In this document: piece after piece, positions 2,433 to 5,526 of the stretch
Position numbering within the stretch: position 1 is the stretch's first letter
Layout of the letters: each line of letters opens with the position of its first letter
DNA from: Pseudomonas muyukensis
GTDB lineage: Bacteria; Pseudomonadota; Gammaproteobacteria; Pseudomonadales; Pseudomonadaceae
Direction of reading: 5' to 3'
Length of the DNA stretch: 64,000 nucleotides
NCBI RefSeq assembly: GCF_019139535.1
Contig: NZ_CP077073.1
Coordinates: forward strand, 385,501 to 449,500
The notes under the pieces: model-generated
What the model was told of the DNA's origin: nothing
Databases searched by the model: none
What the model saw: only the letters and a program-made list of their open reading frames with translations
Translations under genes and position numbers: made by a program

Positions 2433-2466
2433 GCCTTCATGACCGATAACAATCGGTCATGAAGGC
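2433..2466 (-). terminator. 15 bp perfect stem-loop after the fusion gene
   Basis: A perfect 15 bp inverted repeat (2433-2447 with 2452-2466, loop AACA on the plus strand) lies 10 bp beyond the stop of the 2477-5377 gene. There is no U-run after it in the minus direction, so it may be a weak or Rho-assisted terminator, a 3'-end stabiliser, or an operator: its inner part CCGATAACAATCGG resembles the CGATA palindrome in the aguA promoter. Confidence 0.6.
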
Positions 2467-2476
2467 TGGCAAAAGG

Positions 2477-5377
2477 TCAAAGCCCTTCGGCGAGGATCCG
2501 CTCCACACTATCGACGAAGTAGTCCACGCTCGCCCGCGTGGTGCACATCGGTGGCTTGATCTTGAGAATGTTCAGGTAGTCGCCGGTCGGCTGCATGAAG
2601 ATCCCCAGATCGCGCAGGCGATCGCACAGGAGCATGGTTTCCTCGGTGGCAGGCTCCAGGGTCTGGCGGTCACGCACCAGTTCCAGCCCCAGGTAGAACC
2701 CCGAGCCATGGGCCGCGCCGGCCAGCGGATAGTTATCGACCAATGCCTGCAGCCGCGCCTTGAAATGGCGCCCCACTTCCCGGGCGTTGTCCCACAGGCC
2801 TTCGTCACGCATCACATCGAGCACCGCGATACCGATACGGCAACTGACCGGGCTGCCGCCGGCGGACGAGAAGAAATAGCCCTCGGCCTCCAGTGCCTCG
2901 GCGATCTCCCGACGGGTGATCACCGCGCCCAGTGGCTGGCCGTTGCCCATGCCCTTGGCCATGGTGATGATGTCGGGCACCACGCCTTGCTCCTCGAAGC
3001 CCCAGAAATACTCGCCCAGGCGTCCGTAACCGACCTGCACCTCGTCGGCGATGCACACGCCGCCGCGCTGGCGCACCTGGGCATAGGCCTGGCGCAGGTA
3101 GCCCGGCGGCAGCGAGATGCCCCCGGCGTTGCCGTAGACCGGCTCGCAGATGATGCCGGCCAATTGGCGACCCCGGGCATCGAGGTCGGCAAGCCTGGCC
3201 TCGACATCGCGCAGGTAGTCGGCGCTGCTGTCGGCTCCGCGGAAACGGCCACGGAAGGTGTTTGGCGCCTCTACCGGGTGCACCCAGTCCGGGCGGGTCT
3301 CCAGGGCTTGTGGGTTGTCGGCGATGGAAGTGGAAATCGCATCGGTGGCCACCGACCAGCCATGGTAGGCCTCCAGCACGCTGAGCAGGTCGCGCCCGCC
3401 GCTGTAGGCCCAGGCCAGGCGGATCGCCAGGTCGTTGGCCTCGGTGCCGCTGTTGACCAGGAACACCCGGTCGAAGCCCGGTGGCGCCAGCGCCAGCAGG
3501 CGCTCGGCAAACTCGGCGATGGCCGCGTAGTGAAACCGCGAGTTGGTGTTGAGCAACGACCACTGCCGGGCCGATTCGGCGACCATGCGCGGATGGCCGT
3601 GGCCCAGCACCGCGACGTTGTTGAGCATGTCCAGGTAGGAGCGGCCCTGCATGTCGATCAGGTAGTTGCGCCAACCGCGCTCGATGTGCGGCGGCTGGGC
3701 GTAATAGTGCTTCTGCGAGCGGGCAAAGCTGGCATCGCGACGGGCCAGCAGGGCCTGGGGGTCGGCCAAGGGTTCGGCGTCGCACGCAAAGCCCAGCAGC
3801 GCCCGTGGCGACGGGCATAGCGCCAGCCAGGCGGCGGCACGCGATGGCGTGGCGAAGAACGGCGGCTGCAGACCTGCCACCCGGCACAGCTGCACGCTGA
3901 GGAAACCACAGGTGGCGCCTAGCGCCTGGCCCTTCGCCAACGCCTGGCCATCGGCCGGCGCCTGCTCCAGGCCATTGAGCCACAGGCTCCAGTGCGCCGT
4001 GCGCAGGCAGCCGCGGCCATCACCGCCACGCTGCCAGATCCCGGCCTCGGGGGCCTGCAAGGCGGTGCCGGGCGGCAGCTTGAGCTCCACCCCCAGGGCA
4101 CAGGTGGCCGGCTCTTCGGGCCGGTCGATATGGGTTTGCGACAACCGGTATTGGCCGTGCAGGCTACAGGCCGGACCGGGCTGGGCCGCGAGCAGGCGCT
4201 GGTCGAAGCCAGGTTGCTCCCAGTTGCCGGCCTCGCAATGCGCGCTGAGCACGCCGAGGTCGACCTGGGTCACCGCGTGCCCGGCCAGGCTCGGCAGCAA
4301 CCGGGCACAATCGGTGAAGTCCACGGCATCTGGGCCACGCCCTGCCGCCTGCAATATCGCCACCTCCATCAACTCGGCAGGCACCGCGCAGGCGGTATCG
4401 AGGATTTGCCACTCGTGGTCGATGTTGTCGCGGATGTACTGGTTGCCGGGGTCGATCGCCAATTGCTGCTCGCTGCTCAGTACCAGTACTGCGGCGCGGT
4501 TCAGGACCAGCGGCCACAATGCCCGCAGTTCGGCGTCTTGTAGCGGGTTGAGCGCCTGGTAGGCGCTGACCGCCGGGAGGATGCGCAGCGGATCGCCCTC
4601 GGCGTGGTGCAGCAAGGCCGCGCAGGTCACCGACAGGTCGGCAACGCGCCAGGTGCGCAGCAGATCGCCGAAGTCGATCACCCCCCGTACTTGCCACTGG
4701 CGCGCCTGGTCACGGCGCCAGACCATGTTGTCATCGGTGATGTCCAGGTGCACCGCCTGGGTCGGCAACTTGTCGAGCAACGGTTGCAGACGTTCCGCGG
4801 CCCTACGTGCAACCTGCTCGACCTGGGCACGGCGCTGGTCATCTCGCGCCGCCGGCAGCAAGTGACCGATCAACGCCTGGGCATGGCGCGGGTCCCATTG
4901 CAGCGTCCGCTCAAGCCCCGGATGGTCGAAGCCGGCCAGCGCCAGGTCGACCTTGGCGCACAACGCGCCCAGCTCGGCGATCACCCGCGACGGCAAGTGC
5001 TTCAGACGCGTCAGCGGCTCGCCGTCGAGGTACTCCAGCAGCCGCACCCGCAATGCCTGGCCCTCGATGTCCAGCGCCAGCAGCCCCTCGCCATTGCTGG
5101 CCGGACGCACGGCCGGGACCGGCAAGCCCTGCCCGCGCAGGTACTCCAGCGCCGCATGCTGGGCCTCCAGCTCCAGCTGGGCGTAGCTGCCGTGGCAGGC
5201 CTTGAGCACATAACGCCCTTGCGCGCAGTCGACCCGCAAGTTCAGGTCCTGCTGGCTGCCCAAGGCCTGCAGGCTGCCCTGCAGATCGTAATGCGCCCGC
5301 AACAAGGCATGGGCCTGGGCCTCGCCAAGCAGAGGGGCAGGCAGGCTGGAGCGCTGGATCAGGGTCGAGAGCGGCAT
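2477..5377 (-). CDS. APH-like kinase / M23-like / class-III aminotransferase-fold fusion protein
   Basis: A 966-residue three-domain protein. Residues about 1-340 are an aminoglycoside/choline-kinase-type phosphotransferase, with the catalytic loop HLDITDDN (about 210-217) and the Mg-binding VIDFGD (about 233-238). Residues about 370-530 look like an M23 (lysostaphin) beta domain. Residues about 548-966 are a class-III PLP enzyme, with NSGTEAND, DEVQVGYGRLGEYFWGFE and the PLP lysine in ITMAKGMGNG (about 808). The C-terminal domain is most like the ethanolamine-phosphate and phosphohydroxylysine phospho-lyases. I infer that the kinase phosphorylates an amino alcohol and the PLP domain eliminates phosphate and ammonia; the substrate is unknown. 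The ATG at 5377 has GAGG 9 nt upstream; a start at 5392 lacks a site. aguA follows on the same strand. Confidence 0.85.
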   Translation of the reverse strand: MPLSTLIQRSSLPAPLLGEAQAHALLRAHYDLQGSLQALGSQQDLNLRVDCAQGRYVLKACHGSYAQLELEAQHAALEYLRGQGLPVPAVRPASNGEGLLALDIEGQALRVRLLEYLDGEPLTRLKHLPSRVIAELGALCAKVDLALAGFDHPGLERTLQWDPRHAQALIGHLLPAARDDQRRAQVEQVARRAAERLQPLLDKLPTQAVHLDITDDNMVWRRDQARQWQVRGVIDFGDLLRTWRVADLSVTCAALLHHAEGDPLRILPAVSAYQALNPLQDAELRALWPLVLNRAAVLVLSSEQQLAIDPGNQYIRDNIDHEWQILDTACAVPAELMEVAILQAAGRGPDAVDFTDCARLLPSLAGHAVTQVDLGVLSAHCEAGNWEQPGFDQRLLAAQPGPACSLHGQYRLSQTHIDRPEEPATCALGVELKLPPGTALQAPEAGIWQRGGDGRGCLRTAHWSLWLNGLEQAPADGQALAKGQALGATCGFLSVQLCRVAGLQPPFFATPSRAAAWLALCPSPRALLGFACDAEPLADPQALLARRDASFARSQKHYYAQPPHIERGWRNYLIDMQGRSYLDMLNNVAVLGHGHPRMVAESARQWSLLNTNSRFHYAAIAEFAERLLALAPPGFDRVFLVNSGTEANDLAIRLAWAYSGGRDLLSVLEAYHGWSVATDAISTSIADNPQALETRPDWVHPVEAPNTFRGRFRGADSSADYLRDVEARLADLDARGRQLAGIICEPVYGNAGGISLPPGYLRQAYAQVRQRGGVCIADEVQVGYGRLGEYFWGFEEQGVVPDIITMAKGMGNGQPLGAVITRREIAEALEAEGYFFSSAGGSPVSCRIGIAVLDVMRDEGLWDNAREVGRHFKARLQALVDNYPLAGAAHGSGFYLGLELVRDRQTLEPATEETMLLCDRLRDLGIFMQPTGDYLNILKIKPPMCTTRASVDYFVDSVERILAEGL

Positions 5378-5526
5378 GCGGGAAAACCTCATTTTTTTGC
5401 TGTATATCGCCATCAGGCCGGCAATTTGGCAAGCAGGCAGCGTACAATCGCAGCTCGTCGCGTGAGTGCGCAGCCCAGCACATTCTCCTTGCCCGCAAAC
5501 CTGTCCGTCGACAAGCTATGGGCCCG

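Follow-up and report, generated by a model that had tools for sequence, protein, structure and literature searches.

A predicted amino-alcohol kinase/phospho-lyase fusion with a decayed peptidase domain in Pseudomonas muyukensis

Introduction

What does a protein do that carries a small-molecule kinase at one end, a class-III pyridoxal 5'-phosphate (PLP) enzyme at the other and the remains of a peptidase between them? Such a protein is encoded on the minus strand of a 64,000-nucleotide stretch of the Pseudomonas muyukensis genome (contig NZ_CP077073.1, positions 385,501 to 449,500; hereafter the window), at window positions 2477-5377. It belongs to the PRK06149 family and, judged from its motifs and those of its relatives, is probably a bifunctional catabolic amino-alcohol kinase/phospho-lyase. 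In the proposed mechanism, the N-terminal kinase would use ATP to phosphorylate an amino alcohol of the vicinal type (HO-CH-CH2-NH2) on its hydroxyl group. The C-terminal PLP domain would then bind the adjacent amine as an aldimine and eliminate phosphate and ammonia, leaving an aldehyde that would pass to an aldehyde dehydrogenase. The middle domain, a peptidase minus its metal site, would now serve only as a linker or scaffold. The two activities and the way they are coupled are inferred, as are the function of the middle domain and the nature of the substrate.

A sequence-only reading of the locus had proposed that phosphorylation and elimination are combined in this one protein. The enzyme class that it implied is supported by the motifs, by a 100/100 branch in the PLP tree and by the absence of transaminase-type arginine. 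The idea, however, is not new, and neither is the fusion architecture, since bacterial bi- and trifunctional fusions are said to have given Veiga-da-Cunha et al. in 2012 (Journal of Biological Chemistry, JBC) the clue to ETNPPL, PHYKPL and HYKK. That work is cited for the three enzymes in PMC8154272 and PMC5200902, the second of which describes the metazoan hydroxylysine pathway, where HYKK acts before PHYKPL. Among the titles and abstracts listed by a literature search, with subscription papers mostly outside its reach, none dealt with a hydroxylysine kinase from bacteria or with this family of fusions. The present analysis adds the decay of the M23 domain throughout PRK06149, an argument at the level of single residues, the divergence of the pocket and the mixed evidence from genomic context.

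Architecture, family and kinase domain

The open reading frame (ORF) encodes 966 residues, in which a kinase of the APH type is followed by a domain derived from M23 and then by a PLP domain of class III. An alternative in-frame ATG upstream extends it to position 5413 (978 residues). The shorter form is likely but not certain to be the real one, judging by the lengths of the 120 best relatives listed: 966 residues is the commonest (56/120), with 976 residues in 38/120. Residue numbers below follow the 966-residue form unless the 978-residue numbering is stated. In the latter, Pfam assigns APH to residues 58-276 (94.5 bits) and Aminotran_3 to residues 576-974.

The protein matches the NCBIfam equivalog NF004800/PRK06149 over residues 15-977 of 978 (1609.4 bits against a cut-off of 973). 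Among 199 sampled Pseudomonas genomes, 156 contain a match at E<=1e-100; most of those listed span the whole query, and at least two genomes have partial or split matches only. At least 80 Rhizobiales loci match from end to end. Rhizobium relatives on plasmids came to light in a protein-level search, one at DNA level having yielded nothing useful. This wide conservation in Pseudomonas, together with the match to a catalogued family, argues that the fusion is not a chance join. It is real, old and common, and its family was already catalogued, under the label 'aminotransferase' in NCBIfam and mostly under that name elsewhere. In a whole-family search of 274 gammaproteobacterial genomes, only the host passed the cut-off. 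A looser count from that search (270/274 genomes at E<=0.001) consisted mostly of single PLP domains and was not used.

The kinase domain occupies approximately residues 1-340 (4358-5377, minus strand; Pfam APH core 4586-5242), as defined by Pfam and profile matches. Its catalytic loop, HLDITDDN, lies at residues 210-217 (4727-4750) and its magnesium-binding motif, VIDFGD, at residues 233-238 (4664-4681). The hallmarks of APH-type kinases are all present, namely the HxDxxxxN loop, the metal-binding aspartate and the conserved lysine, and K59, H210, D212, N217, D235 and D238 are invariant across 64 aligned kinase domains. Among solved structures, the kinase profile matches an aminoglycoside phosphotransferase (6ef6), homoserine kinase (2ppq) and amicoumacin kinase, all of them small-molecule kinases. 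What the sequence-only reading had noted about the layout is thus borne out: three domains on a single polypeptide (from the ORF, Pfam for APH and Aminotran_3, profile comparison for M23, and full-length relatives), an intact loop and magnesium motif, and a PLP lysine near residue 808. The alignment identifies the latter as the Schiff-base lysine K808 (2954-2956), which is kept in 146/146 distinct PRK06149 relatives.

Three fungal proteins from Lophiotrema, Thozetella and Kalmusia (P0281, P0288 and P0290) consist of the kinase alone (359-396 residues, 43-48% identity). The kinase can therefore stand as an independent unit, and the fungal genes perhaps stem from a transfer of this part alone.

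The PLP domain lies with the phospho-lyases

Does the C-terminal domain (residues 564-962; 2492-3688, minus strand) transfer an amino group or eliminate phosphate? Its best solved relatives are the human ethanolamine-phosphate phospho-lyase ETNPPL (6tor, 327 bits) and the bacterial phospholyase A1RDF1 (5g4i, 244 bits), above all other PDB matches. In a tree of 44 rows, for which the tree program flagged long branches, a 100/100 branch splits a phospho-lyase side of 35 rows from nine class-III enzymes. The former comprises 14 PRK06149 proteins (the P. muyukensis fusion included), 11 proteins of the sister PRK06148 type, ETNPPL, A1RDF1 and eight further homologues; the latter comprises eight of the nine other class-III proteins of the host genome and dialkylglycine decarboxylase.

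Individual residues point the same way. Of the aligned positions 929 and 939, one or the other is arginine in each of the nine class-III enzymes; position 939 is taken here to be carboxylate-anchoring. The fusion has Q929 and K939, and the phospho-lyases have serine or glycine at 929 (serine in ETNPPL and A1RDF1) and lysine at 939. A carboxylate-anchoring role for the C-terminal arginine of class-III enzymes is described in PMC13224807, and that residue is equated with column 929 through the alignment made here. In addition, N586, N587, N610 and R614 of the fusion recur in ETNPPL and A1RDF1, and none of the nine class-III enzymes has them. The anchoring arginine, a residue of the kind named beforehand as speaking for a transaminase, is therefore missing. 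The tree and the anchoring residues together support placing the domain on the phospho-lyase side. An ordinary class-III transaminase fused to a kinase would suit the database names, mostly 'aminotransferase', as well as a fold and lysine that are common to transaminases. Against both the missing arginines and the 100/100 grouping, however, it is highly improbable.

The middle domain is a decayed M23 peptidase

The middle domain (approximately residues 371-548; 3734-4267, minus strand) is a degenerate M23 domain of the LytM type, recognised by profile comparison. Pfam finds no M23 match in the fusion protein (at E<=1) or in three other PRK06149 proteins scanned, whereas it recognises the domain in 4/4 PRK06148 proteins scanned (44-65 bits). 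When 35 PRK06149 middle domains were compared with nine PRK06148-type M23 regions by hhalign, the two aligned over 183 columns with a probability of 98.2 and an E-value of 3.6e-14. This match to the intact region of the sister family identifies the domain as M23 by descent.

What has become of the metal site? At the ligand columns (HxxxD and HxH), the P. muyukensis protein has alanine for the first zinc histidine, glutamate for the aspartate and serine for the second zinc histidine. Among 147 distinct PRK06149 proteins (146 without the P. muyukensis fusion), the first histidine is lost in 147/147 and the second in 146/147, so that none keeps both; the aspartate is still present in 78/147. All three ligands are retained in 12/12 PRK06148-type proteins, and of 40 further PRK06148 proteins all have the PHxH motif (40/40) and 31-32 match the first-motif patterns. 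With the zinc histidines lost across the family, the middle domain of PRK06149 is concluded, from these ligand columns, to be a pseudo-peptidase. The M23-like domain of the sequence-only reading is accordingly real by ancestry and survives as a remnant.

Could it nonetheless be a working peptidase that frees an amino alcohol from a peptide? The motifs are intact in the sister family, and peptide-type uptake genes recur beside family members. Given the missing histidines, the glutamate in place of the aspartate ligand and the lack of a Pfam M23 match in the four PRK06149 proteins scanned, such an activity is very unlikely for the P. muyukensis domain. The decayed domain beside its intact sister version offers a clean case of a domain retained after loss of its catalytic site. 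Two loci (L021 and L022) have kinase and PLP domains joined without any M23 domain; the peptidase part is thus dispensable in the wider family.

Genomic context

In P. muyukensis the gene downstream of the fusion, on the same minus strand, is aguA, encoding agmatine deiminase (1170-2276 when read from the likely start codon, the listed ORF running to 2426; TIGR03380, 573 bits against a cut-off of 381.8). The sequence-only reading had taken aguA as a hint of amine metabolism. As a neighbour it is conserved: among 40 Pseudomonas loci chosen for spread, not randomly, from the 156, aguA follows the fusion on the same strand in 35 (host included), with aguB between the two in 17. This does not establish a common operon or pathway, however, for fusion and aguA are separated by a strong hairpin and by a dyad that is unique in the genome. 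The hairpin, a perfect 15-bp stem at 2433-2466 (minus strand), is a candidate terminator and/or operator; the surrounding 61 nucleotides (2418-2478) fold at -34.3 kcal/mol (z -7.2), and none of 200 shuffles does as well. At its tip (2444-2455, minus strand) lies the dyad CGATTGTTATCG, which a search of the genome found in exact form at this site alone. With at most one mismatch, the dyad precedes aguB or aguA in 23/35 agu-linked loci and occurs in 0/5 others, which suggests that the agu genes are separately controlled. Hairpin and dyad are thus candidates for an operator or terminator specific to agu. On this reading an operon of fusion and aguA is weakened, and aguA is possibly transcribed separately.

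In the remaining 5/40 loci there is no aguA nearby, and yej-like peptide-uptake genes stand upstream of the fusion. The YejF-like neighbour scores 765 bits, below its cut-off of 834, and the other yej-like genes were named by eye. An operon of these genes with the fusion was considered and rejected, since a gene on the opposite strand intervenes in 3/5 loci.

The rhizobial neighbourhoods are different again; counts are taken over 80 loci among the matches listed (L123-L202). The formyltetrahydrofolate deformylase gene purU lies within four genes upstream in 51/80 and is the immediate upstream neighbour, on the fusion's own strand, in 49/80; how it might relate to the proposed chemistry is not apparent. 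An S58 peptidase is found near the fusion in 37/80 loci and hut genes in 10/80. A PotD-like uptake gene (a weak match, 119 bits) and a histone deacetylase (HDAC)-family gene follow the fusion in 7/80 loci and on two plasmids, accompanied by aguB in 3/80 and on the two plasmids.

Which amino alcohol is the substrate?

A tentative candidate is 5-hydroxylysine or an amino alcohol derived from it, with 2-aminoadipate semialdehyde (AASA) or an analogue as product. Substrates of the hydroxylysine type lead slightly, on the strength of relatives' neighbours and gene co-occurrence, and the matter is not settled. Phosphohydroxylysine lyase yields AASA, which makes an AASA dehydrogenase a notable neighbour. 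An AmaA-like oxidase and a piperideine-6-carboxylate (P6C)/AASA dehydrogenase occur near the fusion in 15/80 Rhizobiales loci, the dehydrogenase some 3-6 kb downstream; the one representative of the 15 that was scored reaches 821 bits against a cut-off of 730. The P. muyukensis genome itself encodes a P6C/AASA dehydrogenase (832 bits). In two genomes belonging to the same genus, the sister fusion is clustered with genes for an AASA dehydrogenase (615.7 bits to 6rtr) and a glutaryl-CoA dehydrogenase (590.7 bits to 3gnc). Across Rhodobacterales, AASA dehydrogenase is present in 26/45 genomes with the sister fusion and 32/199 without (p 3.6e-8; n=244), a difference that persists by genus (11/20 against 21/80, p 0.016) and is not seen for a control, betaine-aldehyde dehydrogenase (33/45 against 147/199, p 0.61).

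Several observations weigh against this reading. The co-occurrence concerns the sister family, not PRK06149, and is counted over related genomes that are not independent. Within that family, only 3/44 loci have the AASA dehydrogenase in the flanking DNA that was fetched, and 19/45 genomes with the fusion have no such dehydrogenase at E<=1e-130. In PRK06149 the P6C/AASA dehydrogenase was not seen in 65/80 Rhizobiales loci, some of them on short contigs. The varied contexts of the fusion (agu, polyamine uptake, hut, purU, peptide uptake) indicate no single substrate. The authors of PMC12930750 expect Pseudomonas to break down hydroxylysine via lysine-pathway enzymes; given that expectation, the kinase-lyase route would be a second way of degrading hydroxylysine, or unneeded. 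Finally, the pocket differs from that of known phospho-lyases. PRK06149 forms its own branch in the PLP tree, on a stem of 1.14 changes per column. Among its 146 distinct relatives, position 590 is valine or isoleucine in 133, position 809 glycine in 143 and position 890 histidine in 146, where ETNPPL and A1RDF1 have histidine, proline and arginine. H590, P809 and R890 are common to these two enzymes and all 51 PRK06148-type rows compared. The pocket of phosphoethanolamine lyase (EC 4.2.3.2) was not found at these positions in the fusion, which has V, G and H instead, and a lyase for some other substrate is therefore to be expected.

The AASA link, which a single cluster had made look near-decisive, was given less weight when wider sampling showed it not to be universal. 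A cluster at locus L295 that looked related was set aside, not being adjacent to an AASA dehydrogenase. Near the PRK06148 fusion in Rhodobacterales, whole or in parts, there is also a cluster of genes for a glutamine-synthetase-like protein, an RpiR-like regulator, an N-formylglutamate-amidohydrolase-like protein (these last two named by eye), an isochorismatase-like protein and Liv-type uptake. It was seen in 9/44 sister loci (L226, L228, L302-L304, L307, L308, L311 and L315), both AASA-cluster genomes included.

What other substrates could the same chemistry serve? In the 1970s, an 'amino alcohol kinase' and an 'amino alcohol O-phosphate phospho-lyase' were reportedly measured in extracts of Erwinia and Pseudomonas. 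These activities correspond to the two domains of the fusion, whose nearest relative of known structure uses ethanolamine phosphate, and both points would suit a simple amino alcohol such as 1-aminopropan-2-ol or ethanolamine. Among the papers listed by a literature search on these activities, none had 'amino alcohol kinase'. The host, however, has an ethanolamine ammonia-lyase (EutB, 727.5 bits), so that no kinase route is needed for ethanolamine, and the pocket residues H590, P809 and R890 of both known phosphoethanolamine lyases are changed. Ethanolamine is for these two reasons an unlikely substrate, and simple amino alcohols as a class are not a likely one either. Alternatively, a hydroxylated polyamine (2-hydroxyputrescine, or hydroxyagmatine after AguA and AguB have acted) would be converted to 4-aminobutanal, which would account for the agu genes in Pseudomonas and for the polyamine-transport and aguB genes in some Rhizobiales loci and plasmids. 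Hairpin and dyad set fusion and aguA apart, however, the synteny in Pseudomonas may be merely inherited, and the five loci without aguA lie behind yej-like genes. A polyamine substrate is accordingly quite unlikely.

The divergent pocket also admits a more far-reaching reading, conceivable but doubtful. PRK06149 may be a deep phospho-lyase branch with a rebuilt pocket (V/I590, W674, G809 and H890), born when a trifunctional peptidase-kinase-lyase lost its peptidase, and may apply kinase-plus-elimination chemistry to a substrate for which no enzyme is known to use it. The ancestral enzyme would have taken amino alcohols from peptides, perhaps from hydroxylysine peptides, and the fusion would be a missing gene for bacterial degradation of amino alcohols or hydroxylysine.

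Should the kinase/phospho-lyase assignment be right, one widespread gene of Pseudomonas and Rhizobium would supply both steps of an ATP-driven amino-alcohol breakdown. Old enzyme activities that lack a gene, or bacterial hydroxylysine breakdown, would become testable by a single deletion, and many 'aminotransferase' labels would be corrected.

Comparison with known systems

The closest system is the NF004800/PRK06149 family itself, matched over its full length and in the same domain order; no defining difference sets the P. muyukensis fusion apart from it. The sister family NF004799/PRK06148 ('hypothetical protein') also has the kinase-M23-PLP order, at about 31-34% identity in the 12 proteins compared. 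Unlike PRK06149, it retains the zinc motifs of M23 and the ETNPPL-like pocket residues H590, P809 and R890. Fusions of both families lie nearly adjacent on Sinorhizobium pSymB (L118:8983-16165), accompanied by an Lrp-type regulator and a binding protein for amino acids; because they occur side by side, substrate or stereochemistry may distinguish one family from the other.

ETNPPL (6tor) and A1RDF1 (5g4i) fall on the same side of the tree as the fusion and share a lysine in place of arginine at 939. They are, however, single-domain enzymes and differ from it at pocket positions 590, 674, 809 and 890. Of the three free-standing fungal relatives of the kinase, one is named hydroxylysine kinase by one source. 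In metazoans, HYKK and PHYKPL carry out in sequence the same two types of reaction as proposed for the fusion, but as two separate proteins.

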